Shown here in pieces: positions 269 to 22,550 of a stretch of DNA of 37,377 nt. The notes under the pieces were generated by a model, which saw nothing but the letters and a program-made list of their open reading frames with translations, did not search any database and was not told the DNA's origin. The position numbers were made by a program, and so were the translations under genes. The DNA is taken from assembly GCA_007119175.1 (NCBI GenBank), contig SKQC01000120.1, positions 1 to 37,377 of the forward strand, read 5' to 3'. Numbering within the stretch: the first letter of the stretch is position 1; each line of letters begins with the position of its first letter. The DNA is from Myxococcales bacterium. GTDB lineage: Bacteria; Myxococcota_A; Bradymonadia; Bradymonadales; Bradymonadaceae.

Positions 269-2131
269 TCAATCGTCGTCGCCATTAGAGTCGCCTTCGC
301 CGTTATCTTCGTGTTGGTTATCCAGTTCTGTCTGGTTGTCGTCGTCCTCGGACTCATCCTCGCCGGCGTGGACGGCGACCTCCAGCGCGGAATGGGCGCC
401 GGACAATCCGCCGATGCGCATCGGCTGTGTACCGTCTCGGCGAACTCGCCAGATCTCCTTGCGATTTTCCGCCAGTCCCGGCGAAACGGTGGGGTTACTT
501 CCCATGAAGACCAGCTCGTTTCCGCGAGGTGAAAGCCGCGCGTTGTCGATAAATATATAGCACTCTGAGCCCACGGAGGTTCCCGCATCGCCACTGCAAT
601 CGGCAGCCGAATAGTCTTCGCCGTCGAGATTGCCATAGATCTCCTCGTATTCGCCGGTCGTCAAATCACCGGCCAGAATTGCCGTCCTCGGGATATCGGA
701 CTCCACATCGTCTTCCGGATCGGCTGCCGTTCGAATGCAATGGCGCTGCCCGACAAAATAAACCCGGTGGTCAGGACCGAAGGTAATTGGGCCTTCGATG
801 TCGGTAAACGCAAAGGACCCGTCATTACGGGTCGCCTCGCAGCCCGGTCCGGGGCTAACGGGAAGGCCGACGGGGATCCGCTGTGGCTGACATACCCCAC
901 CGTCGAAATCGTCGGATCCCGAATCGCAGCGATTCACCGGCCCACAATCATCATGCGACGTACAGGGAGCGCTGCTGGCGACTTTGTCGGCATAGGCCAT
1001 ATCGATGACGTGAACCGTGGGTTCGACAGCGACACACCGGCCGTCGGTTCCGCAAACATGCCCGGTCTGGCTACATTCACTATCACTTGAGCAAAACTCA
1101 TGATCATTGGGGCCGGACGTGGCATAAGCCACAAAGCGGCCGTCCTCCGAAAACCCGCTGACGCTGCTCTCACTGACGAAGAGACTTCCCGCGTCGCCAG
1201 GGCGATTACTCCCGTCAATATGGGCCAGAATATCTCCGAGCGGTGGCTCCCCGTCGAGATTGCTGACGTAAATATTCAGTGAGTCCAGCGAGCTGGGAAC
1301 CAAATTCAGGATGCGTTCGCTGGTGGGATCAAAATCATAGGCCTCAGGAAGCGATGCGTTGACGTCATGAAGGGTCACCAACTCCTGCTTTGCTCCGTCA
1401 TGGGCCTGAAAATAACCGACATGAGTGCCACTTTCAGCCTGGCGAAATTTAACGCCGTTGCCTCGGACTCGCGGGCGGGTCACCGACTCCACCATAGGGG
1501 TCGGATCCTCCTGAACACTCAGCGAATCCACATCGACAGGCGCCGTCAAGACGTCGAATCCGTCGCCCGAGGAGGCATCATCGATGATAATAAGGTGGGT
1601 CTGATCCTCGCTAAGGGTGCAGCTTCGCACTTCGCCGCAGTCGATATTTCCGGTGTCGAGTTGGCTGGCATTGGCGTCGTTGTCGACAATCCATATCTCA
1701 GTTTCAGCGCTATCGAGGGCCGGGTCGGCCAGAAACGAAGCAAAATAGTGCTCGTCCTCGATTTCCACCGGTTCCGCAAAGGGCCCGAAGGGATCGATGA
1801 CGCAGATTTCATCCTCACAGAATCGCCCATCCGGGCATTCATCCTGTGAGGTGCAGGCGATCTCGCCTTCATCTTCGACGCAGATATCACCGTCCTCGCA
1901 TAGCATCCCTGAGGGGCAGTCCTCGTGGAGCTCGCAGTCAATATCCCCCTCGGGCTCGACGCAGACCTCGTCCTCGCATATCTCGCCATCTTCGCAGTCA
2001 TCCATGCTCGTACAGACCTCGCCTTCCTCGGTGCCATTGGAGCAGGCTCCCACGCTCAGACCCATCATCGCCAGAGCGGCGAGGCAAACGCCTGCCATCC
2101 AATATTGCCCGTTTAATACCTGTCGTCTCAT
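269..2131 (-). CDS. Lipoprotein with repeated Cys-rich (Dickkopf-like) motifs and a probable beta-propeller-like body, acidic C-terminal tail
   Basis: ORF with signal peptide and lipobox (LSVGAC), five Cys-rich motifs such as CTSMDDCEDGEICEDEVC, CELHEDCPSGMLCEDGDIC, CTSQDECPDGRFCEDEIC, acidic end ESEDDDNQTELDNQHEDNGEGDSNGDDD. GTG start at 2134 also possible. Confidence 0.8.
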   Translation of the reverse strand: MRRQVLNGQYWMAGVCLAALAMMGLSVGACSNGTEEGEVCTSMDDCEDGEICEDEVCVEPEGDIDCELHEDCPSGMLCEDGDICVEDEGEIACTSQDECPDGRFCEDEICVIDPFGPFAEPVEIEDEHYFASFLADPALDSAETEIWIVDNDANASQLDTGNIDCGEVRSCTLSEDQTHLIIIDDASSGDGFDVLTAPVDVDSLSVQEDPTPMVESVTRPRVRGNGVKFRQAESGTHVGYFQAHDGAKQELVTLHDVNASLPEAYDFDPTSERILNLVPSSLDSLNIYVSNLDGEPPLGDILAHIDGSNRPGDAGSLFVSESSVSGFSEDGRFVAYATSGPNDHEFCSSDSECSQTGHVCGTDGRCVAVEPTVHVIDMAYADKVASSAPCTSHDDCGPVNRCDSGSDDFDGGVCQPQRIPVGLPVSPGPGCEATRNDGSFAFTDIEGPITFGPDHRVYFVGQRHCIRTAADPEDDVESDIPRTAILAGDLTTGEYEEIYGNLDGEDYSAADCSGDAGTSVGSECYIFIDNARLSPRGNELVFMGSNPTVSPGLAENRKEIWRVRRDGTQPMRIGGLSGAHSALEVAVHAGEDESEDDDNQTELDNQHEDNGEGDSNGDDD

Positions 2132-2359
2132 CACGTTCTCACTCCCTGAATCGGATTTTCATCGCCCGGTATCTTCGGCGGTGTCTCCAACCACTGGAAA
2201 CACTGCACTGATCGTCTGCGGCAGAATTCCACAATCGACGCACTATAAGTTTCTCACCGATCCGTATCAAGCGCGCGCAGCCCCCCTTTCGAGCAAGTGA
2301 GGAATCGAACCATCGAGCTCGCGAGTGGACACGGTAGCTGTCAATTCCTGTAACTTGTG

Positions 2360-2389
2360 TTGAATGAAATGAACTCACCAGCTTAGAAT
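2360..2389 (+). promoter_or_regulatory. Candidate sigma70-like promoter
   Basis: TTGAAT (2360-2365), 18-bp spacer, TAGAAT (2384-2389), upstream of the + strand ORF at 2419/2458. Confidence 0.3.
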
Positions 2390-2457
2390 GCGGCAGGTAC
2401 TTCCGATGGAACTCCAAATTGCATTTACAGGCTTTTTCCCTTTTCCCCCGACATCAC

Positions 2458-4536
2458 ATGAATAGCCGACCTCGAGACTGCCCCCGGGCAGTACGTCGAA
2501 GTTGGGGGGACTCTGTCGCTGCTCGCGGCGTGTGGACATTGTTGATATTTGCCCTCGCCCTGATGGCAGTCTTTGCCCCGGCGACGGTTGAAGCTGACGA
2601 GGAACCGAGCATTGAGGGGATGTTGCAGGCCATGGATCGGAGCGATGTTCCGGACGCCACCTCCGCTTTACCGGAGGCGACGACGAGTCCGGTCAACGTC
2701 GAAGTTCAGTGGCGACTGTGGAATCGAACCGTGGTGGAGGGCCGCCCCGGTCTCGACGAATTAGACACGCTGCGCTACGACGCCTCGAGCATCGGCGTTC
2801 CGAGCCTGCCGCATCACCAGCTCGCCGTGCTGCACCGCGCCCAACGCGGCGAGGAGTATGGGCTCTCCCACGATGAAATCCGCCGCCTGAAGCGAGCCGC
2901 ACACAGCCTGGCCCCCCACCTTCCGTACGCCCAATTCGAATTGGCCCGCTGGGAGGTCGAGACATCACTTTCCACAAGTTATCGCGCTATTTCTCCGTAT
3001 ATGAATGGCGTCAGTACGGCCTATGGGTGGCTCGATCTGCGAATTGGTTGGGCGCTTAAGTGGGCGATGATCCTATTTATGGCCGCATCGATCGCCTTTA
3101 TCGGCTTCGTCCTCGCCCAATTGCTTCGCTATTTTGGCATCGCCGCCTACGACGGCACGCGCGTGCTTCCCCGGGGATTTTCGAGCACTCAGACGGTGAT
3201 TCTACTGGTGGCGATCGTCTTGGTCCCGGGGCTGTTGATGCAATCGCCATTGCTGTCGATGATCCTGCTATTGGCCCTTGTGATTCCTTTTCAGCAGATC
3301 AACGAGAGGATCGTATCGATCTGTTTCTTCGCGCTAATCGCCGCCCTTCCCTTCGCCGACGACAACCTGGGTCAATTTCTGACCTATCCGGGAAGTGATG
3401 CCCAGAATCTTCTGCACGCTCACTATCACGGATGCGACGAGGCCTGCCACGACTGGTTAGAATCGCTTGCCGAGGACGACGAATACGGCGTGGCCCGATT
3501 TGTCGAGCGCACCGCCGCTTTTCGGACTGCTTCTCATGAGCAAATGTTGGAGTTGCACGATTGGTTTGGAGAGCACGAGCCGGAAAGAGATTCCGACCTG
3601 GCAGCAAATTGGCTGAATTTAGAGGGAGGGGTGGCGATTGCCGTCGGTGAGTCCGAGGAGGCCCTCGATCCACTGGAGGAGGCCACACGAGCTGATCCAA
3701 TGGCCGCCGCGCCCTGGTTTAATCAAATGCGTGCCTACCAGATATTGGACGAAGAAGGGCCGAGCCAGCAAGCGCTGGAGGCGGCCTTTAATCGCGACCT
3801 GAACGCCACCTCGCAGAGGTTGGACTACACCCGGCGCGACGCCCACAGCTTTTTGATGCTCGATCTCGTCGACAGCGACCTCATCTGGCGGCATCACGCA
3901 CCAAAAGCCGATGATGCACCGAGCCTGCTCAGTCCCTTCTGGACACTCGCGGCCGGCGAGCGCTTGGAGCTGCGGTGGGCTCCCTGGATTGGGTTTGTGG
4001 GGATTCTTTTGGTGTTGCTGACCCTTCCGCTATATCTGCGCCGCACCATCAGCGCCCCCTGTCCCAAATGTGGCCTGGCCCGCGACCCGCAAGAAGCCGA
4101 ACAGACCGGAGATCACCACTATTGTTTTCCCTGCTACCAGACCTTCGTGTCCGGCTCGGCACTCGAATATCACGCGCGGATTCACAGTGAGGCGACCCTC
4201 GGACGCCGCGATCGTCTCCAGAGTTTTCTGCGACGGGCGTTTTCACTCATCACCCCCGGTGTCGGACATATATTGGGTGGCCACGCCATCCGGGGAATCC
4301 TGGCCTTTTTGGCCCTGACCACGGGAGCTTTACTCTTATTATATCCGCTCGGTCCGTTTGGCGCCTGGCGCGGCGCCTTCGAGCTCTTTCGAGAACACTG
4401 GGCCGGTCAGGGCTTGCTGGCCTGGATTTTGATCTCCATCGGGGCCTCCGTCGGGCTCACCGGCCTGATTCGAGGCGTGGAGTCGACGCGGGTCCGGCCA
4501 AAATCAAAAACCAAAGACAAAGGGGGCGCCAGATGA
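2458..4536 (+). CDS. Multi-pass membrane protein with TPR-like region and zinc-ribbon-like CxxC pairs
   Basis: ORF 2419..4536; ATG at 2458 (MNSRPRDC) is an alternative to 2419. Hydrophobic segments, TPR-like stretch, CPKCG...YCFPCYQ, and PGVGHILGGHAIRGIL near the C-terminus. Confidence 0.7.
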   Translation: MNSRPRDCPRAVRRSWGDSVAARGVWTLLIFALALMAVFAPATVEADEEPSIEGMLQAMDRSDVPDATSALPEATTSPVNVEVQWRLWNRTVVEGRPGLDELDTLRYDASSIGVPSLPHHQLAVLHRAQRGEEYGLSHDEIRRLKRAAHSLAPHLPYAQFELARWEVETSLSTSYRAISPYMNGVSTAYGWLDLRIGWALKWAMILFMAASIAFIGFVLAQLLRYFGIAAYDGTRVLPRGFSSTQTVILLVAIVLVPGLLMQSPLLSMILLLALVIPFQQINERIVSICFFALIAALPFADDNLGQFLTYPGSDAQNLLHAHYHGCDEACHDWLESLAEDDEYGVARFVERTAAFRTASHEQMLELHDWFGEHEPERDSDLAANWLNLEGGVAIAVGESEEALDPLEEATRADPMAAAPWFNQMRAYQILDEEGPSQQALEAAFNRDLNATSQRLDYTRRDAHSFLMLDLVDSDLIWRHHAPKADDAPSLLSPFWTLAAGERLELRWAPWIGFVGILLVLLTLPLYLRRTISAPCPKCGLARDPQEAEQTGDHHYCFPCYQTFVSGSALEYHARIHSEATLGRRDRLQSFLRRAFSLITPGVGHILGGHAIRGILAFLALTTGALLLLYPLGPFGAWRGAFELFREHWAGQGLLAWILISIGASVGLTGLIRGVESTRVRPKSKTKDKGGAR

Positions 4537-4970
4537 GCCCTTCTCCCCCGGCAGTCCCCGAAAAAAATGGTGATGACACGACCGAGGCCGATGCGCGAAA
4601 AGTCGGGATCACCACGTTGATTGTGCATCACAGCATCACTGTGTTGATTTTAGTTCTCTTTTTGGGGCTCGGAGTCTGGAGTTATCTCAATTTTCAGAAT
4701 ACCGACTTTTTTGCCTCCGTCGACCGCGTAGAATTAGAGGCCCAGCTTCAGCCCTCGCTGGAGTCGGCGCAGCAATCACGCCTCGAAGTCGCACTTGAGG
4801 TCTATGCCCTCCTCAACGACCGCTATCCGACTCGATTTGAAGAGTTGGTCAACGCGGGATTGTTATTGCCCTCTGATCTGTACTATCCAAGAGGTCCGCA
4901 GAGCTGGCTATACGAGCCCCACGCCGACGGCTTTACGCTCGAGTCACGGCCCCCGGACAATTCGCAATAA
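4533..4970 (+). CDS. Single-TM protein with pseudopilin-like extracytoplasmic region
   Basis: ATGA overlap with previous stop; one TM (ITVLILVLFLGLGVWSYL), then ALEVYALLNDRYPTRFEELVNAGLLLPSDLYYP...WLYEPHADGFTLES, reminiscent of T2SS pseudopilin C-terminal regions. Confidence 0.65.
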   Translation: MSPSPPAVPEKNGDDTTEADARKVGITTLIVHHSITVLILVLFLGLGVWSYLNFQNTDFFASVDRVELEAQLQPSLESAQQSRLEVALEVYALLNDRYPTRFEELVNAGLLLPSDLYYPRGPQSWLYEPHADGFTLESRPPDNSQ

Positions 4971-4973
4971 GCC

Positions 4974-4991
4974 AGTGTCGACATCGACACT
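4974..4991. repeat. Perfect inverted repeat upstream of phoH
   Basis: AGTGTCGA-CA-TCGACACT. Confidence 0.6.
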
Positions 4992-4998
4992 CACCAGC

Positions 4999-5012
4999 AT
5001 TTACCAGTAAAT
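4999..5012. repeat. Perfect inverted repeat upstream of phoH
   Basis: ATTTAC-CA-GTAAAT, 7 bp downstream of the first palindrome. Confidence 0.5.
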
Positions 5013-5024
5013 AGAGGTACGCGT

Positions 5025-5990
5025 TTGACTGAGTCCCTCACCCGCCAATTGAGTTTTGCCGAATCCGACGTCGCCCGATATATCTACGGTCATCGCGACG
5101 CATTTCTCCGACTTATCGAAGAGGAACTCGACGTGCGCCTCGGCGCTCGCGGAAAAGAGATCAACGTCGAGGGGAGCCCATCGGACGTCGAGATCGCGGT
5201 GCGAATCCTCGAAGAGCTCTACGCCCTGGGCGAAATGGGCTATCACTTGAGCTCTATGGACGTCGGCCGGGCCATCGATATTCTGAGCCGGGAGCCCGAT
5301 ACCGATCTGGTTTCCATTTTCTCCGACGAGGTCTTCTCGTCAAAACACTCCCGCGTCATCTCACCGAAAGGACTGTCGCAGAAGGTCTATGTGGACGCCA
5401 TTCGCCGAAACGACATCGTCTTCGGCGTCGGCCCGGCCGGCACCGGTAAGACCTACCTGGCAATGGCAATGGCGCTCGCCGCCTATTTCGACAAGAAGAT
5501 CAAACGCATCATCCTCACCCGCCCCGCCGTCGAAGCCGGCGAAAATCTGGGCTTTCTCCCCGGCGATCTTGCCGAGAAGGTCAATCCCTACCTGCGCCCC
5601 CTATACGACGCACTCCACGATATGGTGGAGGTCGAAAAAGCAGAGCGCATGCTGGAACACGGCACCGTCGAGGTGGCGCCGCTGGCCTTTATGCGCGGTC
5701 GCACATTAAATGATGCCTTCATCATCTTTGATGAGGCTCAAAACGCCACCTCGGCGCAGGTAAAGATGTTTTTGACCCGTATTGGCTTTAATTCCAAAGC
5801 CGTTATCACCGGTGATATCACTCAAATTGACCTGCCCTCTCACCGCCGCAGTGGACTAGTGGAGGCCGTCGACCTGCTGGGCGATATCTCGGGCATCGAA
5901 TTTTGCCGATTCAACAAGCACGATGTCGTGCGACACCCGCTGGTCCAGAAGATTATCGCTGCCTACGAAGAGCAGGCCGAGGAGCGTTGA
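5025..5990 (+). CDS. phoH: PhoH family P-loop ATPase
   Basis: TTG start; GPAGTGKT Walker A, LTRPAVEAGENLGFLPGDLAEKVNPYLRPLYDAL, IIFDEAQNAT, GDITQIDLP are hallmark PhoH motifs. Confidence 0.95.
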   Translation: MTESLTRQLSFAESDVARYIYGHRDAFLRLIEEELDVRLGARGKEINVEGSPSDVEIAVRILEELYALGEMGYHLSSMDVGRAIDILSREPDTDLVSIFSDEVFSSKHSRVISPKGLSQKVYVDAIRRNDIVFGVGPAGTGKTYLAMAMALAAYFDKKIKRIILTRPAVEAGENLGFLPGDLAEKVNPYLRPLYDALHDMVEVEKAERMLEHGTVEVAPLAFMRGRTLNDAFIIFDEAQNATSAQVKMFLTRIGFNSKAVITGDITQIDLPSHRRSGLVEAVDLLGDISGIEFCRFNKHDVVRHPLVQKIIAAYEEQAEER

Positions 5991-9000: not shown

Positions 9001-9221
9001 CGTTTTTGCTCACCGGCAAGACCTCAGAAATCGAGGACTCCGTCAGCGACCTTCACACTCTCTCGCCGATGCTCTGCGACTCGGACAAGATCCGGTATGC
9101 AATCTCCGGTGATGGTGGAGATGACACCTCTATCATCGTCGATGACGGGACTTTTGACGACGGCGAAAATATCTCGACTGAAGTGGGCGACGACAATGGC
9201 GAACGGCTCGATCCCCGCTGA
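6099..9221 (+). CDS. Large lipoprotein, helical/TPR-like repeats
   Basis: ORF 6042..9221; internal ATG at 6099 gives MTGFRYLAFAAAFVGCALAVGCSW (lipobox AVGC). Helix-rich body; acidic C-terminus DDTSIIVDDGTFDDGENISTEVGDDNGERLDPR. Confidence 0.75.
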   Translation: MTGFRYLAFAAAFVGCALAVGCSWTQSPSKSKNFAVSWQIQEPTRTSASAELFLTDTGYWAYKAEDRGGFEPEFAPGQLVLMEAEASDHFFVVVEAERWGYRLQRLDDRPLHATLSGQLLPVTKEVVGERHDLCAVSDLDNIDGECGLSYRHRRWHLFASVSGDEDAESPLSIEGDFDDVATDRRFPVNRRALAGGDVLGSWVETAGNFEDDTSFIAIGAHERSGSTLRATVTADEACSLSLSDSDLVRTDTVAFEKMEISLGNNPHPVAVEGAALRLGSDALLTCDEDISGLMVPMISRPLLADDSDRFFAPPSIGLHRRDLSEMSADARQAWTRAGALIAVGDPAAASYWLEEALAAEDIPEFSLTAMPVLAGAGQPERSMQLGTRATRRAWNPENIPDYLDGLIVLLGQYGEHDALQDRLERRQSLASRRLDGHRVGFYRWADLRLEVSERKSSYGPAYEQWIADLQSRGLDGWAVAMWATLAMGGMELPIVDDPDDLIPRFAEFDAANLWSAIRDQLHSASCDEKEVAGCDPRSYGWSNRRMPGDSDILDILRTTAAMQLRTGFGGPQLGQRAAEFASGAEQAAYWLAIAPLVDDVDRELLTRSLTRALRDDLADLRSGGKVCENLELWQARFENAAARSRAPDNNRSRTEWTQFASWWADSGLHGFCSTTDDFLDAIEEFASDANPWLAGILPLLEDRILAERLAPADLKNLERAAELARLTGARDTCAHWNLGVSIGAIRNGHFGAAEDHLVRAHNCLDGDRSLRDTHNLVAAYLDFERGGGRRLIRDGGVESAIAAATRRRIDDSATCVGLLPIGFHLEAHLPDSVLRIAEQLDVEPAPYDGFGLRTASGFIDEARAAYLSGLRDLQRGQFETAANALQRAQANFRRLDHLPGLARIALIDDVVFDGLLHDVADGEEFPELSTESEERDKLRRGQAFRLIDEVALPVDFSAHPDPPALITAFLLTGKTSEIEDSVSDLHTLSPMLCDSDKIRYAISGDGGDDTSIIVDDGTFDDGENISTEVGDDNGERLDPR

Positions 9222-11145
9222 GTGGAAGGCGGCAATACAGAGTCTTACGGGAGATCGGTACGAGCTGGATGTCGAGTTGGGATCCGGTGGGATGGCCACC
9301 GTCTATCGGGCCCGTGACAAAGAACTAAAGCGCTCGGTGGCCATCAAGATTCTCCACCGACATCTTATCGGCAATGCCGAGCACGATGCGCGCTTTCGGC
9401 GCGAGGCGGAATCTATCGCCCGCCTCGACCATCCCGGCATTGTCGAAATCTATGATCTGCTTGAAGTGCCCGGGGAATTTCTCGCCATCGTTATGGAGTA
9501 TGTGCCGGGCGAGTCACTGGCGGCCCTGCTCGACGAATCGCTGCCCCTTCCCCCGGAGTTGGCCGCTCAGATCATGCTGCCTGTTCTCCACGCCCTGTCG
9601 TACGCCCATAAACAGGGAGTGATTCATCGCGATCTAAAACCGGCCAATATCCTCGTAGATGACGATGCCGTACCCAGGCTGAGCGATTTCGGAATTGCCC
9701 ATATCGAGGCCGAGGAGACTCTCACCACGACGGGCTCCATCGTCGGCAGCCCGGCCTTTATGGCTCCCGAGGTTGCCGAGGGACAACCAGCAGATGAGCG
9801 AAGCGATCTCTTCGCTGTGGGATCGATTTTATTTTTGATGGTTACCGGCGAAATGCCATTTTCCGGGCATTCACCGCCAGAATTATTGCGCAATATCGCC
9901 GATGGGCGCCGAAAACGAGCCGATGTCGTCCGCGAGACTGTCGGCCGGCATTTCGCCGATATTTTGGAAGTTTTTCTGAGCACAGATCCAGACGAACGGC
10001 CGTCGACCGCCTCGGAAATTGCCGAGATTCTGAGCGAGTTTTCTTCGGCATCACCGGTATTTGAGCCTCCAGATCCAAACCTATGGCTTAAAGAACCTAA
10101 AAGTTACACTTTAGAGGTTCAGCGCGAAATTGAGGCCGGCCTTCGCAAAAAGGCCCGACGAGCTGTGGAGTTACAAGATTTCCCCGGAGCGCTCGCCGCT
10201 GTGGAAAGACTCCTCTCGATCACCCCCGGCGACTCGGAGGCCACGGAACTTCTCGACCGACTCCACAGCGATGATTCTCGGCGACCTATCGTCATCGCTG
10301 CCGGTATTATAGCAGCTATATTCGCCCTTGGTGCGGTGGGCTTTTTCGCCTATTCGCCGGCTTCCCAGGATGATCCGGTGTCGAGCAAATCCATCTCAGC
10401 CCCGGAGCATTCGGCATTGCCAGGCGCAGGCGAACGCGTCTTAGACTACGTCGAAACCTACTCGAGGTTTACGTCCCGGCTTTCCGCCATCGAGGCCGCC
10501 CTCGACACTGCCGACACGGCGGAGTTTGGCGCCGGCGAAATGGACTCCGATTCCAGATCTGCTGCCAGACAGGACGATATGCCTGCAACTCCGGATGCCG
10601 GCCTGCCCGATGACGCCGGTGACGCAACAGAAACTCCCCCTCCAAATGCCGAGGACGACGTGGCGGCACAGGAAACGGAGACGATTCGCTTTCGACTCAT
10701 TCCCACGTCGGCAATCCTTCACGTCGACGGACGCGAATTTGACGCCATGGAGGCTGCCCGGGGAGTTGAGCTTTCCCACGGCGACGTGGAAATAGCTATC
10801 CGCGCCCCCGGTTGTGAGACTCACCGTGAAGTTGTCTCCGTCGGCCCCGACAGCAGCGACGATTACTCCGTTGTCCTGTCCTGGCAAGACGGGTACATTC
10901 GCCTCGCCGTCGATCGCGATTCGCTGGTATGGGTCGATGGTGACAACACGCCACAGCGAGTGTCAGCGGCGCAGGAGAATCTCCTCACCGTTGAATTCGG
11001 GCCCGCCGACGAAGTCGCAAATAAGCGCGAGGTAGCGCTGAGGGTGGCTCCTCGCGACGATCTTGAACGAGCTCGCACCACCACCGCTTCCGTCCGTCCC
11101 GGAACAGAGACCCCTATCGCCGTATCGCTCCATGAGGAACGATAA
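9196..11145 (+). CDS. Transmembrane Ser/Thr protein kinase with PEGA-like extracytoplasmic region
   Basis: ATG at 9196 (MANGSIPAEW), overlapping the upstream gene by 26 nt; GSGGMATVYRA, VAIKIL, HRDLKPANIL, DFGIAH, APE; TM PIVIAAGIIAAIFALGAVGFFAY; C-terminal RLIPTSAILHVDGREF...VEIAIRAPGCETHREVV (PEGA-like). Confidence 0.93.
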   Translation: MANGSIPAEWKAAIQSLTGDRYELDVELGSGGMATVYRARDKELKRSVAIKILHRHLIGNAEHDARFRREAESIARLDHPGIVEIYDLLEVPGEFLAIVMEYVPGESLAALLDESLPLPPELAAQIMLPVLHALSYAHKQGVIHRDLKPANILVDDDAVPRLSDFGIAHIEAEETLTTTGSIVGSPAFMAPEVAEGQPADERSDLFAVGSILFLMVTGEMPFSGHSPPELLRNIADGRRKRADVVRETVGRHFADILEVFLSTDPDERPSTASEIAEILSEFSSASPVFEPPDPNLWLKEPKSYTLEVQREIEAGLRKKARRAVELQDFPGALAAVERLLSITPGDSEATELLDRLHSDDSRRPIVIAAGIIAAIFALGAVGFFAYSPASQDDPVSSKSISAPEHSALPGAGERVLDYVETYSRFTSRLSAIEAALDTADTAEFGAGEMDSDSRSAARQDDMPATPDAGLPDDAGDATETPPPNAEDDVAAQETETIRFRLIPTSAILHVDGREFDAMEAARGVELSHGDVEIAIRAPGCETHREVVSVGPDSSDDYSVVLSWQDGYIRLAVDRDSLVWVDGDNTPQRVSAAQENLLTVEFGPADEVANKREVALRVAPRDDLERARTTTASVRPGTETPIAVSLHEER

Positions 11146-12034: not shown

Positions 12035-13840
12035 ATGGCCTCTATACGCACCGTGCAGAAATCTTCTTCCGATGCACCGGAGGAGTACTTTCTTCGGCGG
12101 CGGATCACCACCGTGGGCAGCGCCTCCGACAGTGATATTCAGCTATTAGGTGACAACATTTTTGGTCACCATGCGACGATCACCTGCGAGGGCCCACATT
12201 TCGTTGTGCGCCCGGCGGCGAAAAAAGCGACGCTGAAGATCAACGGCAAAAAGTGCCGGCGAAAAAAGGTCCTGGAACACGACGATGAACTCACCGTCGG
12301 TGACGCAGAACTGCGTTTTCGTATTCTCGACGATCGAAGCCCGGCGCAGGTGGCTAAACCTCAGGTCCATCGACGCCTCGAGGGTCTGGAGCGAATCCAC
12401 CAATTATCGATTGAATTGTTGCAGGCCAATGAGCTCGATGAACTCCTCGATGAACTCATCGACTCTGCGATTGCCCTCACCGGTGCCGACAAGGGGTTTT
12501 TGGTCCTTACCGACGGCGATGACTGGTCGATTCGAGTGGCCCGAAACGTCGACCTGGAGGCCATCATCGATGATTCCTCTCATCTGTCGGACTCCGTATT
12601 GCAGGAGGTAATGAGGGTCCAAAAGCCGATTATCATCGCCGATGCCCGCACGGACGAACAATTCCGCGACGCCCAGTCGGTCATCGATCTCGAATTATGC
12701 AGTGTGATGTGTGTACCGCTTCTCGACCGGGGACAACTGCTGGGCGTCATCTACGTGGGGAATGACCGGGTCGCCGATCTCTTCGATGAACTACACCTGG
12801 ATTTACTCTCGATTTTCGCCGCCAAACTCAGCCTGGTCATCGCCAACGCGATTCTGATGGACGAGTTGCGCTCCGATAACCGATCGCTGAAAAACCGGCT
12901 GCGAAGCCGGCGATTTGGCTCCCTGATTGGCGCCAGTGATGCGATGAAACCCGTATTTCACGCCATCGATCGCGTCGCTCCCACAAATGTTACCGTTTTG
13001 ATTACGGGAGAAACTGGAACTGGCAAAGAATTAGTAGCTGCCGAACTTCACCGCCGCAGCGACCGCGCCGACGGACCGTTCGTGACCCTTAATTGTGGGG
13101 CGATTCCAGAAAACCTTTTGGAAAGCGAGCTCTTCGGCCACGTCGAGGGGGCATTTACGGGCGCCTCGCAAAAACGCAATGGAAAATTCCACGCCGCTGA
13201 TGGAGGGACCTTATTTCTCGATGAGGTCGGGGAGATGCCCCCGAATTTACAGGTCAAATTGCTCCGCGTGCTACAGGAACGCACTTTTACCCGCGTCGGC
13301 TCCAATACTGCGGAGTCCGTCGATATCCGCATCCTCGCCGCCACGAACCGCAACCTCGCCGACGATGTCTCCTCCGGGAATTTTCGCGAGGATCTCTACT
13401 ACCGGCTCCACGTCGTCGAGATCACCTTGCCGGCGCTGCGGGAACGGGAAAATGATATCATTCTCATTGCCGAGTATCTCATCGACCAGATAAGTGATGA
13501 GCTTCAAATTTCTCCCCGCAAATTGAGCGCCGACGCCACTCGTGCGATGCGCAAATTTGACTGGCCGGGCAATGTGCGGCAATTGGAAAACCGCCTTAAA
13601 AAAGCACTGGTTTTGGCTCAAGGTTCCACCCTCAGTGCCGAGGATCTCGACTTATCTCCAGCGCTATTGCCCGAACCTACGTCACTGGCTGAGGCCAAGG
13701 AAAAATTCGCGCTCAAATACGTGCTCCAGGTCCTGGAGAAAAACGACGGCAATCGATCGCAGACCGCCAGGGACCTCGATATCGACCCGCGCACCGTCTT
13801 TCGTTATCTCGAAAAGTCCTCGTCCCCTGCAGATGGCTGA
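12035..13840 (+). CDS. FHA-GAF-sigma54-dependent transcriptional activator (bacterial enhancer-binding protein)
   Basis: N-terminal FHA-like fold; GAF domain; GETGTGKE, GAFTGA, GGTLFLDEVGEMP, R-finger region; C-terminal Fis-type HTH (NRSQTARDLDIDPRTVFRYLEK). Confidence 0.93.
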   Translation: MASIRTVQKSSSDAPEEYFLRRRITTVGSASDSDIQLLGDNIFGHHATITCEGPHFVVRPAAKKATLKINGKKCRRKKVLEHDDELTVGDAELRFRILDDRSPAQVAKPQVHRRLEGLERIHQLSIELLQANELDELLDELIDSAIALTGADKGFLVLTDGDDWSIRVARNVDLEAIIDDSSHLSDSVLQEVMRVQKPIIIADARTDEQFRDAQSVIDLELCSVMCVPLLDRGQLLGVIYVGNDRVADLFDELHLDLLSIFAAKLSLVIANAILMDELRSDNRSLKNRLRSRRFGSLIGASDAMKPVFHAIDRVAPTNVTVLITGETGTGKELVAAELHRRSDRADGPFVTLNCGAIPENLLESELFGHVEGAFTGASQKRNGKFHAADGGTLFLDEVGEMPPNLQVKLLRVLQERTFTRVGSNTAESVDIRILAATNRNLADDVSSGNFREDLYYRLHVVEITLPALRERENDIILIAEYLIDQISDELQISPRKLSADATRAMRKFDWPGNVRQLENRLKKALVLAQGSTLSAEDLDLSPALLPEPTSLAEAKEKFALKYVLQVLEKNDGNRSQTARDLDIDPRTVFRYLEKSSSPADG

Positions 13841-19341: not shown

Positions 19342-19985
19342 GATAACTCCCGGTTCGCTGATTGATCCGGTGATGATAATTCGAGGGACTCAATTCGCTG
19401 TGCCCAGTCGTCGTCGGCCCATAATCGCGCCACTCGACGGTTGGCATTGCGCTCTAATTCCACGATTAGCCCCCTCCCCGGCCAGGCTCCGGGAATTCGG
19501 TTGAGCCACTCCACACAACTGATGCCCCGGCCACTTTCCACAGCATCCCAATATCCGATCGATTCCAGATCTGACCACCCCTCGAGGCGATATAGGTCGA
19601 TATGAAAGATGGGCGGCCTCGTCTCGTAGACCTGCATTAATGCATAGGTCGGACTCGTGGCCTGCCATCGATCGCTGTCGTCGATGGCGGCGACCACGCC
19701 CTGCATCATCGTCGTCTTTCCCGCCCCCAGCTCTCCAATAAGCCCGATAAAATCTCCGGGCTTTGCCTGAGAGGACAGCGAGATTCCGAGTTGGCGGGTC
19801 TGGTCCGCGTCGGCCAGCGCGAGCTGAGCCACCGGCGAGTCATGGACCCCCGAGTAGACTTGCGATTTCACACCTATCCCTGATTTGCGGTATTGAGCCG
19901 AAGCTGATTTGACTGAAATGGGGCACCGACGCGAAAAAGGGCGCGAATTAAACTGTGTTCCGCCTACTCCCACCGTAGAAATCAC
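19338..19985 (-). CDS. tsaE: tRNA threonylcarbamoyladenosine biosynthesis protein TsaE
   Basis: GELGAGKTTMMQGVV, SPTYALMQVYETRPPIFHIDLYRLEGWSDLESIGYWD, ISCVEWLNRIP. GTG at 19985 overlaps the upstream stop; an internal GTG at 19871 may be the true start. Confidence 0.92.
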   Translation of the reverse strand: MISTVGVGGTQFNSRPFSRRCPISVKSASAQYRKSGIGVKSQVYSGVHDSPVAQLALADADQTRQLGISLSSQAKPGDFIGLIGELGAGKTTMMQGVVAAIDDSDRWQATSPTYALMQVYETRPPIFHIDLYRLEGWSDLESIGYWDAVESGRGISCVEWLNRIPGAWPGRGLIVELERNANRRVARLWADDDWAQRIESLELSSPDQSANRELS

Positions 19986-21985
19986 TGAACATACAGCGGA
20001 AATTCCACTCCACGTTCATGCACCGCACCGTGTTCGGGAAACCGCATGCCGCGAAATCGATCGATGAGACACTGACCGACCGGCCGGTTCTGATACTGCG
20101 ACTCCTGCAAACCCACTCCTCCGGTGGTACCGGTGGGGCGGATGAAGAATTTGATCGTCACGCCGCGAAACGAGGGATCGCTGTTGATCTCTTTCATTAC
20201 ACAGTCCCGCAACCTCGAAAAGTCGGCCATGATCACCTGGTTGATCTCCTGATCGGTCAGATGATGATCGGTTCCACTATCGTCGCTTAAATCAACGACC
20301 TGCTCTTCCCGTTCTTCTGTGGGACGCTCTCGGGCGGCGCTGCCGGCCGATGACGGTGCTGCTGCCGACTGGGCCTGGGCGACCTGGCGGGCCACTTCCT
20401 CCTCCGTCGCCTCCGGATTGAAGATCCCCTCCATGACGTCCGGATCGACCTCCATGGTCTGAAATTCAGTCGGCGGCGGCGAGAAGTGATAATCCATCGA
20501 CGCAAAGGCGCTCTCCATTGGGATCGGCTCCGGATCCGGCAGATTCAGCCACACCTGAATCATTCCGGCGAGCACGAAAAGTGCGACCACAATTCCTATC
20601 AATAACGCCGCCTTGCCACCTTTTTTGGCTTTACCGACCAGTTCGGCGCGTCGCTCAGCCTCTCGGCGCAATCTCTCTTCGCGCTCCGGAATATAGGCCA
20701 GCACCTTTTCTCGAAAGGCGTCGTGCTCCTGCAGCGGCCGACGTCCCTGGCTGACGCGATCGAGCACCTGAGAGTGCTCGTCGATTTCGTCGGCATATAA
20801 TTGCTCGAGGATCTCCTCCTCGGTAAACGGCCCGTAGTCGAGACCGTCCTTTTGGACCAGATAGCGATCCTCGCTGGTATCCCCTCGCGCCGGAGTCCCG
20901 ATCTCGTCCGGATCGAAAAGATCGAAAAGATCGGCCTCCGCCTCGTCGGGAGCTGCCTGCACAGCGGGTTTTATCGGCAGCGCTCCCGGCGGTGGCGGAC
21001 CGGTCAGTTTCGCCTCTGCATCGCGGGCGATCTCTTCGAATTCGTCGCGAAATTCCATCACCGACGACGGGCGCTGACCCGGATCGGAGCTAATACATCC
21101 ACTGATGAGACTAAATAGCGATGGCGGATAATTGGCCAGCACATCGACCGCCATATCATGGGCTTCTTTGCGATCGCTGGGAAGCCCGGTGGGACTGAGC
21201 AATTCAGCGGCGATCATCCCCAGGCTATACAGATCTGCTTGTTGCGACGCCTGCGACGGGTCCGCGGCCACTTCGGGGGCCACGTAGATACTGTCGACGT
21301 ACGCCCCTTCGCCCCGCTCATACAGATAGCCACTGACCACACGGCCATAGCCGAGGTTGCCGACTCGGACGTCTCCATCGCCGGTGACGTAGATGTTGTA
21401 AGGCGTCAATACAGCGTGGCAGATATTTCGGTCGTGGACGTCGCTCAACGCATCACAGGTATGGGCGAGCACGGTAAACGCATCACGCAAACTCAGCGTG
21501 CGTCCGCTCTCGCGCCGCTCGGACACCAACTGTGAGAGCGTCGCCCCCTCCACATACTCCATGGCAATAAAGATATCGCCGGAATCGCTGCGCCCCATTC
21601 CCACCGCACCGGTCAGGTTCGGGTGATCGATGGAACTTGCTTTACCGATGGCGGAGCGCATCCGCTTGAACTCGTCGTCTCCCGGATAGGTCATCTCCAG
21701 CAGCTTTAAAACCACCGGTTCTTGCGTTTTGCGATCATTGCACAAATAGCTTACGGCGCCACCGGAGCTGCCGAGGTAGCGCTCGACGAAAAAGCGTCCG
21801 CCCACTGAATCACCGGTCTTCAATGCCGTCGTCTCCGGGGCCTGACGACTGTCGCGAACGCCCGGTGCTTGAGGACGCACTGCCGGCTTCGGTGGTGGTC
21901 CGGGAGGGCCCTTTTTACCCTGTGGCTTCGGGGGACCTCCCGGAGGGGGGGCGGTGGCCTGCTTGTCATCTGAAGAATTACTCAT
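19982..21985 (-). CDS. Pseudokinase - GYF_2-like - TM - AgmX/TonB-C-like multidomain protein
   Basis: Kinase-like fold (YLGSSGGAVSYL, VVLKLLEM, MEYVEGATLSQL, APEV, DLYSLGMIAAELLS) but ICHAVLTPYN in place of HRDLKPxN and GNLG in place of DFG; GYF-like DGLDYGPFTEEEILEQL; TM AALLIGIVVALFVLAGMIQVWL; C-terminus DFSRLRDCVMKEINSDPSFRGVTIKFFIRPTGTTGGVGLQESQYQNRPVGQCLIDRFRGMRFP. Confidence 0.85.
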   Translation of the reverse strand: MSNSSDDKQATAPPPGGPPKPQGKKGPPGPPPKPAVRPQAPGVRDSRQAPETTALKTGDSVGGRFFVERYLGSSGGAVSYLCNDRKTQEPVVLKLLEMTYPGDDEFKRMRSAIGKASSIDHPNLTGAVGMGRSDSGDIFIAMEYVEGATLSQLVSERRESGRTLSLRDAFTVLAHTCDALSDVHDRNICHAVLTPYNIYVTGDGDVRVGNLGYGRVVSGYLYERGEGAYVDSIYVAPEVAADPSQASQQADLYSLGMIAAELLSPTGLPSDRKEAHDMAVDVLANYPPSLFSLISGCISSDPGQRPSSVMEFRDEFEEIARDAEAKLTGPPPPGALPIKPAVQAAPDEAEADLFDLFDPDEIGTPARGDTSEDRYLVQKDGLDYGPFTEEEILEQLYADEIDEHSQVLDRVSQGRRPLQEHDAFREKVLAYIPEREERLRREAERRAELVGKAKKGGKAALLIGIVVALFVLAGMIQVWLNLPDPEPIPMESAFASMDYHFSPPPTEFQTMEVDPDVMEGIFNPEATEEEVARQVAQAQSAAAPSSAGSAARERPTEEREEQVVDLSDDSGTDHHLTDQEINQVIMADFSRLRDCVMKEINSDPSFRGVTIKFFIRPTGTTGGVGLQESQYQNRPVGQCLIDRFRGMRFPEHGAVHERGVEFPLYVQ

Positions 21986-22550
21986 CAGTTACATTCTCGT
22001 CGGACACAGATTCGTGCTCGCTGGCTTCACTGTCCACTTCTGGTTCGGGCGACGGCTCATCAATCCCATCATCCACTAAAATCGGGCGACGCTCGTCGAC
22101 GGGGAGGTCGACAAACCAACGCTGCTTCTCAGCTCCCCATCGCATGGGGATTTTCGCATCTCGGTCGTCGCGAAACTCGACGGTCAACTCTACCACGTCT
22201 CCATCCGAGGGGCCTTCGGGCACACTATCATCGGTGCTGATCCTCGAGATGAGCATCGGGCTCTCCAGTCGTGTCACCACGAGCATTCGCGATCGGTCCA
22301 CCGTTAACTCACCGTCGAATAGATCCGCCAGATCATCGTGCGCGGCTTCCAGCTCCCGCCGCGTCGGCGGCCAGACGGCGTCCATCGCCGATGCCCGCTC
22401 ACCGCGACGCAAATCGTCGAGAAACGCCGTCGCCACATCCTCCGGGCCCTCCACGCCATCGTCGCAGCCCATAAGCGCTCCCGACGCAACGGTGATGAGC
22501 AATATGACGAGGGCAATAACCGATTGGGCTTTAAGAGGTAAATGGTCCAT
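21978..22550 (-). CDS. Putative lipoprotein, DUF4878-like
   Basis: MDHLPLKAQSVIALVILLITVASGALMGCDD; ATAFLDDLRRGERASAMDAVWPPTRRELEAAHDDL; acidic C-terminal tail. Confidence 0.7.
   Translation of the reverse strand: MDHLPLKAQSVIALVILLITVASGALMGCDDGVEGPEDVATAFLDDLRRGERASAMDAVWPPTRRELEAAHDDLADLFDGELTVDRSRMLVVTRLESPMLISRISTDDSVPEGPSDGDVVELTVEFRDDRDAKIPMRWGAEKQRWFVDLPVDERRPILVDDGIDEPSPEPEVDSEASEHESVSDENVTDE

Follow-up and report, generated by a model that had tools for sequence, protein, structure and literature searches.

The window, a stretch of DNA of 37,377 nucleotides, encodes on its minus strand, at positions 19982 to 21985, a protein of 667 residues in a single open reading frame that joins, from N to C terminus, a kinase fold devoid of catalytic motifs, a GYF domain, one transmembrane helix, and a TonB-like AgmX/PglI tail. 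This architecture is demonstrated by the translation, by Pfam and NCBIfam matches, and by orthologs; in a 44-member alignment, the kinase model was matched by all 44 sequences and the tail model by 43 (E ≤ 0.01 for the tail). As to function, we infer that evolution has kept this kinase dead for a nonenzymatic job, probably that of a docking platform in a cell-envelope machine. The first-pass annotation of the gene is upheld in part: its pseudokinase, GYF domain, membrane helix, and tail stand, but its proline-rich partners do not, and it lacked the upstream lipoprotein gene, the linkage to tsaE, and the kinship with GltJ and GltG described below. Coordinates of features refer to the minus strand unless the plus strand is given.

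The kinase-like head and its lost motifs

The protein begins with a proline-rich, variable, and probably disordered tail (residues 1 to 55; 21821 to 21985); about half of the family to which the window belongs has it, and most other members have a short version or none. The kinase-fold domain follows (residues 56 to 325; 21011 to 21820). Pfam PF00069 matches residues 68 to 308 with an E value of 1.5e-23, and the best PDB matches to the region by sequence are StkP, PknA, and PknB. Since a full-length AF2 model built from five sequences was poor (pLDDT 36.5) and played no part in the claims about folds, the assignment rests on sequence profiles. Weak NCBIfam matches to MADS6, PknB-PASTA, LanL, and similar models were set aside as kinase-domain matches scoring far under their cutoffs.

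The first-pass annotation had read this region as a kinase fold that keeps the lysine of a VVLK motif but has lost its catalytic loop and DFG motif, and each of these calls is borne out, the positions of both losses included. The lysine at the VAIK position, K94 (21704 to 21706), is present here and in 34 of 51 aligned orthologs, an alignment that comprises members from the window's class together with members from other families of the phylum. The former catalytic loop, ICHAVLTPYNIYV (residues 188 to 200; 21386 to 21424), has V192 where the HRD aspartate would lie, and no sequence among the 51 has an aspartate there. The window copy reads HAV at the HRD position, while GLW occurs in none of the aligned members. 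The former DFG motif reads NLG (residues 210 to 212; 21350 to 21358), and its aspartate is kept in only 12/51. The window copy does keep the catalytic-loop asparagine N197 along with K94, as the window's family does in the alignment, and its activation segment is present, with YVAPE.

The two remaining hallmarks do not occur together. None of the 51 members combines the VAIK lysine with the DFG aspartate (independence would predict 8 that do, although the states cluster by lineage): in nearly all lysine-keeping members the DFG aspartate is replaced by asparagine, and where the aspartate stays, the lysine is gone. Judged by these motifs, the protein is a pseudokinase, as the first pass had claimed. 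In two further members read apart from the alignment, L283 (HGALSPATV) and L284 (HGALTSDSV), the HRD aspartate is likewise missing when judged by eye. A single early loss of the catalytic aspartate, followed by different further losses in different lineages, explains this most simply.

The pseudokinase is conserved and under purifying selection. A search of 58 whole genomes, including the window's own, at a threshold of E ≤ 1e-30 returned a match in 49, and each of the 20 further genomes in the window's family has exactly one full-length ortholog, at 41 to 75% identity. Most of the genomes searched are drafts or metagenome-assembled genomes. The single-copy orthologs come from independent assemblies, single-contig genomes among them. 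Among three close relatives, dN/dS for the kinase domain is 0.036 to 0.039 at a dS of about 0.5, as low as that of the tail. The loss of catalytic motifs could in principle reflect a decayed paralog or an assembly or sequencing error, and homologs with intact HRD and DFG motifs would have spoken for this; we looked for such homologs and found none. With a motif loss common to 51/51 orthologs, single-copy conservation across assemblies, and an omega of about 0.04, decay or error is refuted for practical purposes, and we assign it next to no probability.

The window's own genome, a 5.4-Mb draft, contains 109 matches to the Pkinase domain. Of 94 kinase domains sampled locus by locus, 18 were flagged by a script as lacking, or not showing, the lysine, the HRD aspartate, or the DFG aspartate, some of them in truncated open reading frames; for comparison, M. 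xanthus is reported to have 99 Ser/Thr protein kinases and 11 pseudokinases (PMC6791715). A quick maximum-likelihood tree built from kinase domains, without bootstrap, separates the family from 45 of the 46 other kinases taken from this genome; the exception sits on a very long, uncertain branch.

A shared chassis with a variable head

A low-complexity linker containing a short DLFD motif (20921 to 20932; F354 in 46/51 orthologs) lies between the kinase-like head and a GYF_2-fold domain (residues 373 to 437; 20675 to 20869) whose family signature is D[YHF]GP[FY]. The GYF call made in the first pass is weak by direct sequence comparison: the window protein scores 12.7 bits against a Pfam gathering cutoff of 25.8 for GYF_2 (PF14237), and the model is matched at E ≤ 0.01 by no more than 8 of the 44 aligned members. 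It is supported by other means. Profile-profile comparison of the family's columns with two GYF_2 domains, both from the window's own genome and both over the Pfam cutoff, gave a probability of 95.4% (E = 1.9e-8), against 0.05% for the kinase-region control; the isolated domain was modeled by AF2 with a mean pLDDT of 88; and the best Foldseek match was a solution structure of the GYF domain from Myxococcus GltJ (7z3c; probability 0.98, TM 0.64). Nine of the ten best Foldseek matches were GYF-domain chains, none with an E value below 0.001 for this 73-residue query. Proline-binding GYF domains carry the signature GP[YF]xxxx[MV]xxWxxx[GN]YF (PMC12034629). At the W position, the 51 members have Q, K, R, or M, and none of them has Y at the Y position. 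Since the family as a whole has lost the W and the GYF triad, the proline-rich ligand that would be the first guess for such a domain, and that the first pass had proposed, is not supported.

A transmembrane helix follows at approximately residues 460 to 478 (20552 to 20608), recognized by hydropathy and sequence. By the positive-inside rule, the Arg/Lys-rich helix just before it places the kinase side in the cytoplasm and the tail in the periplasm. In the predicted periplasmic linker (20258 to 20539), P485 is conserved, and PPPxEF and FNPxA boxes occur across much of the class. The linker leads to the AgmX/PglI C-terminal domain (19994 to 20257), in which C595 (51/51) and C639 (50/51) are near invariant. 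Residues 577 to 664 match NCBIfam NF033768 with 48.4 bits, above the curated cutoff of 40, and TonB C-terminal domains make up six of the seven PDB matches to the core profile, though the best reaches only E = 0.046. The membrane helix and the AgmX/TonB-like tail had both been called correctly in the first pass.

The same layout of cytoplasmic GYF_2 domain, one transmembrane helix, and AgmX/PglI tail is found in GltJ/AgmX (NF033761) of Myxococcus gliding. GltJ-type proteins have a zinc ribbon at the N terminus where the window protein has a pseudokinase, and their GYF signature differs from that of the window's family. Against the NF033761 model, the window protein scores 43.2 bits as a whole protein, with a cutoff of 450 and the tail as the best-matching stretch; given a score so far under the cutoff and the missing zinc ribbon, it is not GltJ. 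Two GltJ-like proteins with the zinc ribbon-GYF-TM-tail order are encoded elsewhere in the same genome (L243, G000:C25; L244, G000:C395), one of which bears a long proline/lysine repeat. GltG/PglI (NF033760) likewise combines a cytoplasmic signaling-type head, one transmembrane helix, and a TonB-like tail, but its head is an FHA domain rather than a pseudokinase-GYF pair, and only the tail of the window protein matches its model (27.5 bits against a cutoff of 650). GltG/PglI, with its FHA domain, membrane helix, and TonB-like region, is reported to interact with the motor subunit AglR (PMC3169522). Set beside the zinc ribbon and FHA heads on this chassis, the pseudokinase-GYF family represents a third head type.

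Orthologs were also drawn from a phylum-level search of 120 genomes; beyond the window's class, orthology is based on architecture and profile score. A profile of the GYF-TM-tail part alone found relatives across Myxococcota. In the ten loci that we read, the head is graded. A full-length inactive kinase region occurs in L283 (f28) and L284 (f32), and only a C-lobe remnant, aligned by eye, precedes the GYF domain in four genomes of f14 (L288, L289, L291, and L292). Proteins of about 300 residues in L286 (f21), L287 (f16), and L290 (f36) have no kinase at all, nor does any kinase match occur elsewhere in their 6- to 8-kb loci; the 359-residue open reading frame in L285 (f18) also has no kinase match. 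Inside the window's own class, L061 (f4) encodes a member without a kinase, with no kinase match in the remaining 10 kb, and keeps tsaE about 2 kb downstream. Across Myxococcota, the head in front of the GYF-TM-tail core is thus a complete but dead kinase, reduced to the remnant of a C-lobe, or missing, a gradation that is new. Because relatives with a reduced or absent kinase keep everything else, we take the GYF-TM-tail part to be the core and the head to be reducible or losable.

Gene neighborhood

The gene lies in a same-strand run that encodes a HEAT-repeat protein, a DUF4388 protein, a small lipoprotein, the pseudokinase, TsaE, a 154-residue protein of unknown function, and a CPBP-type membrane protein. 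The lipoprotein gene (21978 to 22550; lipobox LMGC) overlaps the start of the pseudokinase gene, and its product, which we leave unnamed, has at most a match to DUF4878, below threshold at E = 0.05. tsaE (PF02367; 19338 to 19985) is directly downstream. Synteny with both genes is maintained through the window's family, and in many members of other family codes a small lipobox open reading frame likewise lies directly upstream, often with an overlap of a few bases.

We compared these upstream proteins by hhalign, using one alignment per family code drawn from loci with a recognized lipobox (a single sequence for f6 and two for f3). The lipoproteins of f1, f2, f5, and f6 are mutually homologous (96.9 to 99.0%), and that of f4 matches f1 (85.0%), f2 (96.3%), and f5 (94.5%), while its comparison with f6 is unsupported (3.0%). 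The f3 protein is supported with f2 (96.7%) and unsupported with f1, f4, f5, and f6 (1.9 to 24.7%), so that this sixth code is linked to the other five indirectly. No such lipoprotein was recognized beside the members in f18, f25, and f30.

Downstream, tsaE occurs on the same strand in f1, f2, f3, and f4 wherever the flank is long enough. In part of the family (L081, L082, L083, L087, L088, and others), an open reading frame of about 95 to 110 residues, with shared-looking sequence, lies between the pseudokinase gene and tsaE. tsaE was not found in the loci of f5, f18, f25, or f30, and other genes intervene in many members; on these grounds we rejected a role in the t6A pathway. The context of the gene varies, as f5 illustrates: in L045, the next gene is not tsaE but an ECF sigma factor identified by Pfam (L045:2646-3245, minus strand), which starts 25 nt after the family member, and the open reading frames that follow the gene in L046, L047, L070, and L071 begin like it. 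What is new for the window's class is the usual presence of a small lipoprotein gene ahead of the pseudokinase gene and, often, of tsaE behind it.

About 9 kb from the pseudokinase gene, on the plus strand, are a canonical Ser/Thr kinase with intact HRD and DFG motifs (9097 to 11145) and, near it, an FHA-GAF-sigma54 activator (12035 to 13840). This pair is near the pseudokinase gene in 9 of 12 genomes of the family; since it is kept alongside many other conserved genes, the linkage looks like ordinary synteny, and we do not regard the kinase as an obligate partner. At the f32 locus (L284, minus strand), a canonical kinase open reading frame is directly upstream of the family member (2023 to 3741 and 3742 to 5691).

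A putative trans-envelope adaptor

Few bacterial pseudokinases have an assigned role. We found no bacterial pseudokinase family with the pseudokinase-GYF-TM-AgmX/PglI layout in the published literature, and the family falls outside the definitions of ActPs3, GLW, and CP1. These three are treated, together with ActPs1, ActPs2, DYD, and DLHK, in a 2025 review of bacterial Ser/Thr pseudokinases, the main text of which mentions none of GYF, TonB, or myxobacteria (PMC12599244). MviN, an ActPs3 member, resembles the window protein in being a membrane-bound bacterial pseudokinase tied to envelope biology, but the hallmark of ActPs3 is a deleted activation loop with full motif loss, whereas the window protein has an activation segment and keeps K94 and N197. 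GLW pseudokinases have GLW in place of HRD and Leu or Trp in place of the lysine, where the window protein has HAV and K, and CP1 proteins are COG3899 fusions without a transmembrane helix, where it has a helix and a C-terminal half made up of GYF domain, helix, and tail. EssB/YukC of type VII secretion likewise places a cytoplasmic pseudokinase, one membrane helix, and an outer domain in a noncatalytic scaffold of an envelope machine. EssB is not known to have a GYF domain or an AgmX tail, and no EssB model is among the NCBIfam matches of the window protein. By analogy, EssB/YukC and MviN, membrane-bound pseudokinases that act without catalysis, would be the nearest functional counterparts.

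The reading that we favor, and for which we see somewhat better than even chances, is that the protein is a noncatalytic trans-envelope adaptor built on the chassis of GltJ/AgmX and GltG/PglI, with a head of pseudokinase and GYF_2 that docks cytosolic partners and a tail that works with the lipoprotein, a partnership that we infer from gene order alone. Docking by the pseudokinase and GYF domain might be set by nucleotide in the lineages that keep the lysine or, alternatively, by phosphorylation from one of many active kinases. The binding state of the head would then be passed through the membrane helix to the periplasmic tail, and the tail, together with the lipoprotein, would assemble or regulate an envelope complex at the cell wall or outer membrane. 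The pseudokinase would be a regulatory accessory, shortened or discarded in some lineages, and the GYF-TM-tail part the core. Kinship, and kinship only, suggests gliding as the machine that may be served. The first-pass idea of a scaffold coupling cytoplasmic state to the envelope fits this picture and gains strength from the relatives that have only a C-lobe or no kinase at all and from the lipoprotein gene found upstream across much of the class.

It is also possible, though unlikely, that the protein acts as an MviN-like phospho-switch, with a phosphosite, placed on the pseudokinase or its linker by an active Ser/Thr kinase, that recruits an FHA protein to the envelope complex. There is precedent in MviN, whose pseudokinase tail recruits FhaA once phosphorylated by PknB (PMC12599244), and the genome's many Pkinase domains, the nearby kinase and FHA-GAF-sigma54 pair, and the kinase directly upstream in f32 speak for it. 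A candidate site is S232 in the former P+1 loop, a serine in 30 of 51 members, but no phosphosite is conserved across all members, relatives without a kinase exist, and the linkage of the neighboring kinase is of the ordinary kind noted above. A transmembrane sensor of envelope stress, in which the tail and lipoprotein respond to a periplasmic signal and the cytoplasmic head frees or switches on a regulator such as the neighboring ECF sigma factor of f5, strikes us as distinctly improbable. The lipoprotein linkage across much of the class and the gene order in L045 and similar loci fit such a sensor, yet the sigma factor gene is identified by Pfam at one locus only, the examined loci of other families contain no linked sigma factor, and the features of the head indicate docking rather than anti-sigma folds.

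We give very little credence to a noncanonical enzyme that uses ATP for another transfer, such as SelO-type AMPylation. The likeness lies in the catalytic loop of SelO, Hgvmntdn, in which HGV stands for HRD (PMC12599244), and in the retention of K94 and N197 by the window's family. SelO, however, keeps the lysine and the aspartate at the DFG position together, a combination that no member of the window's family has; members with only a C-lobe or without a kinase exist, and the model matched is PF00069 rather than that of SelO.

A broader version of the adaptor reading, whose chances we put a little short of even, is that of a phylum-wide adaptor family in which a protein kinase was first taken up as a docking head, then became inactive in a common ancestor, and was later trimmed stepwise to a C-lobe and finally removed, while the GYF-TM-tail part stayed and, in the window's class, came to form a two-component module with the lipoprotein.

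One chassis of the GltJ/GltG type is thus seen with three heads, a zinc ribbon, an FHA domain, and a dead kinase, and the last is whole, halved, or gone in relatives. With this variation, exchanging or deleting the head would test directly what the dead kinase contributes, and the linked lipoprotein is a concrete first candidate partner. If the adaptor family is as we propose, it would be part of an undescribed envelope-spanning signaling or assembly complex, one that preserves natural intermediates in the evolution of a kinase into a scaffold.
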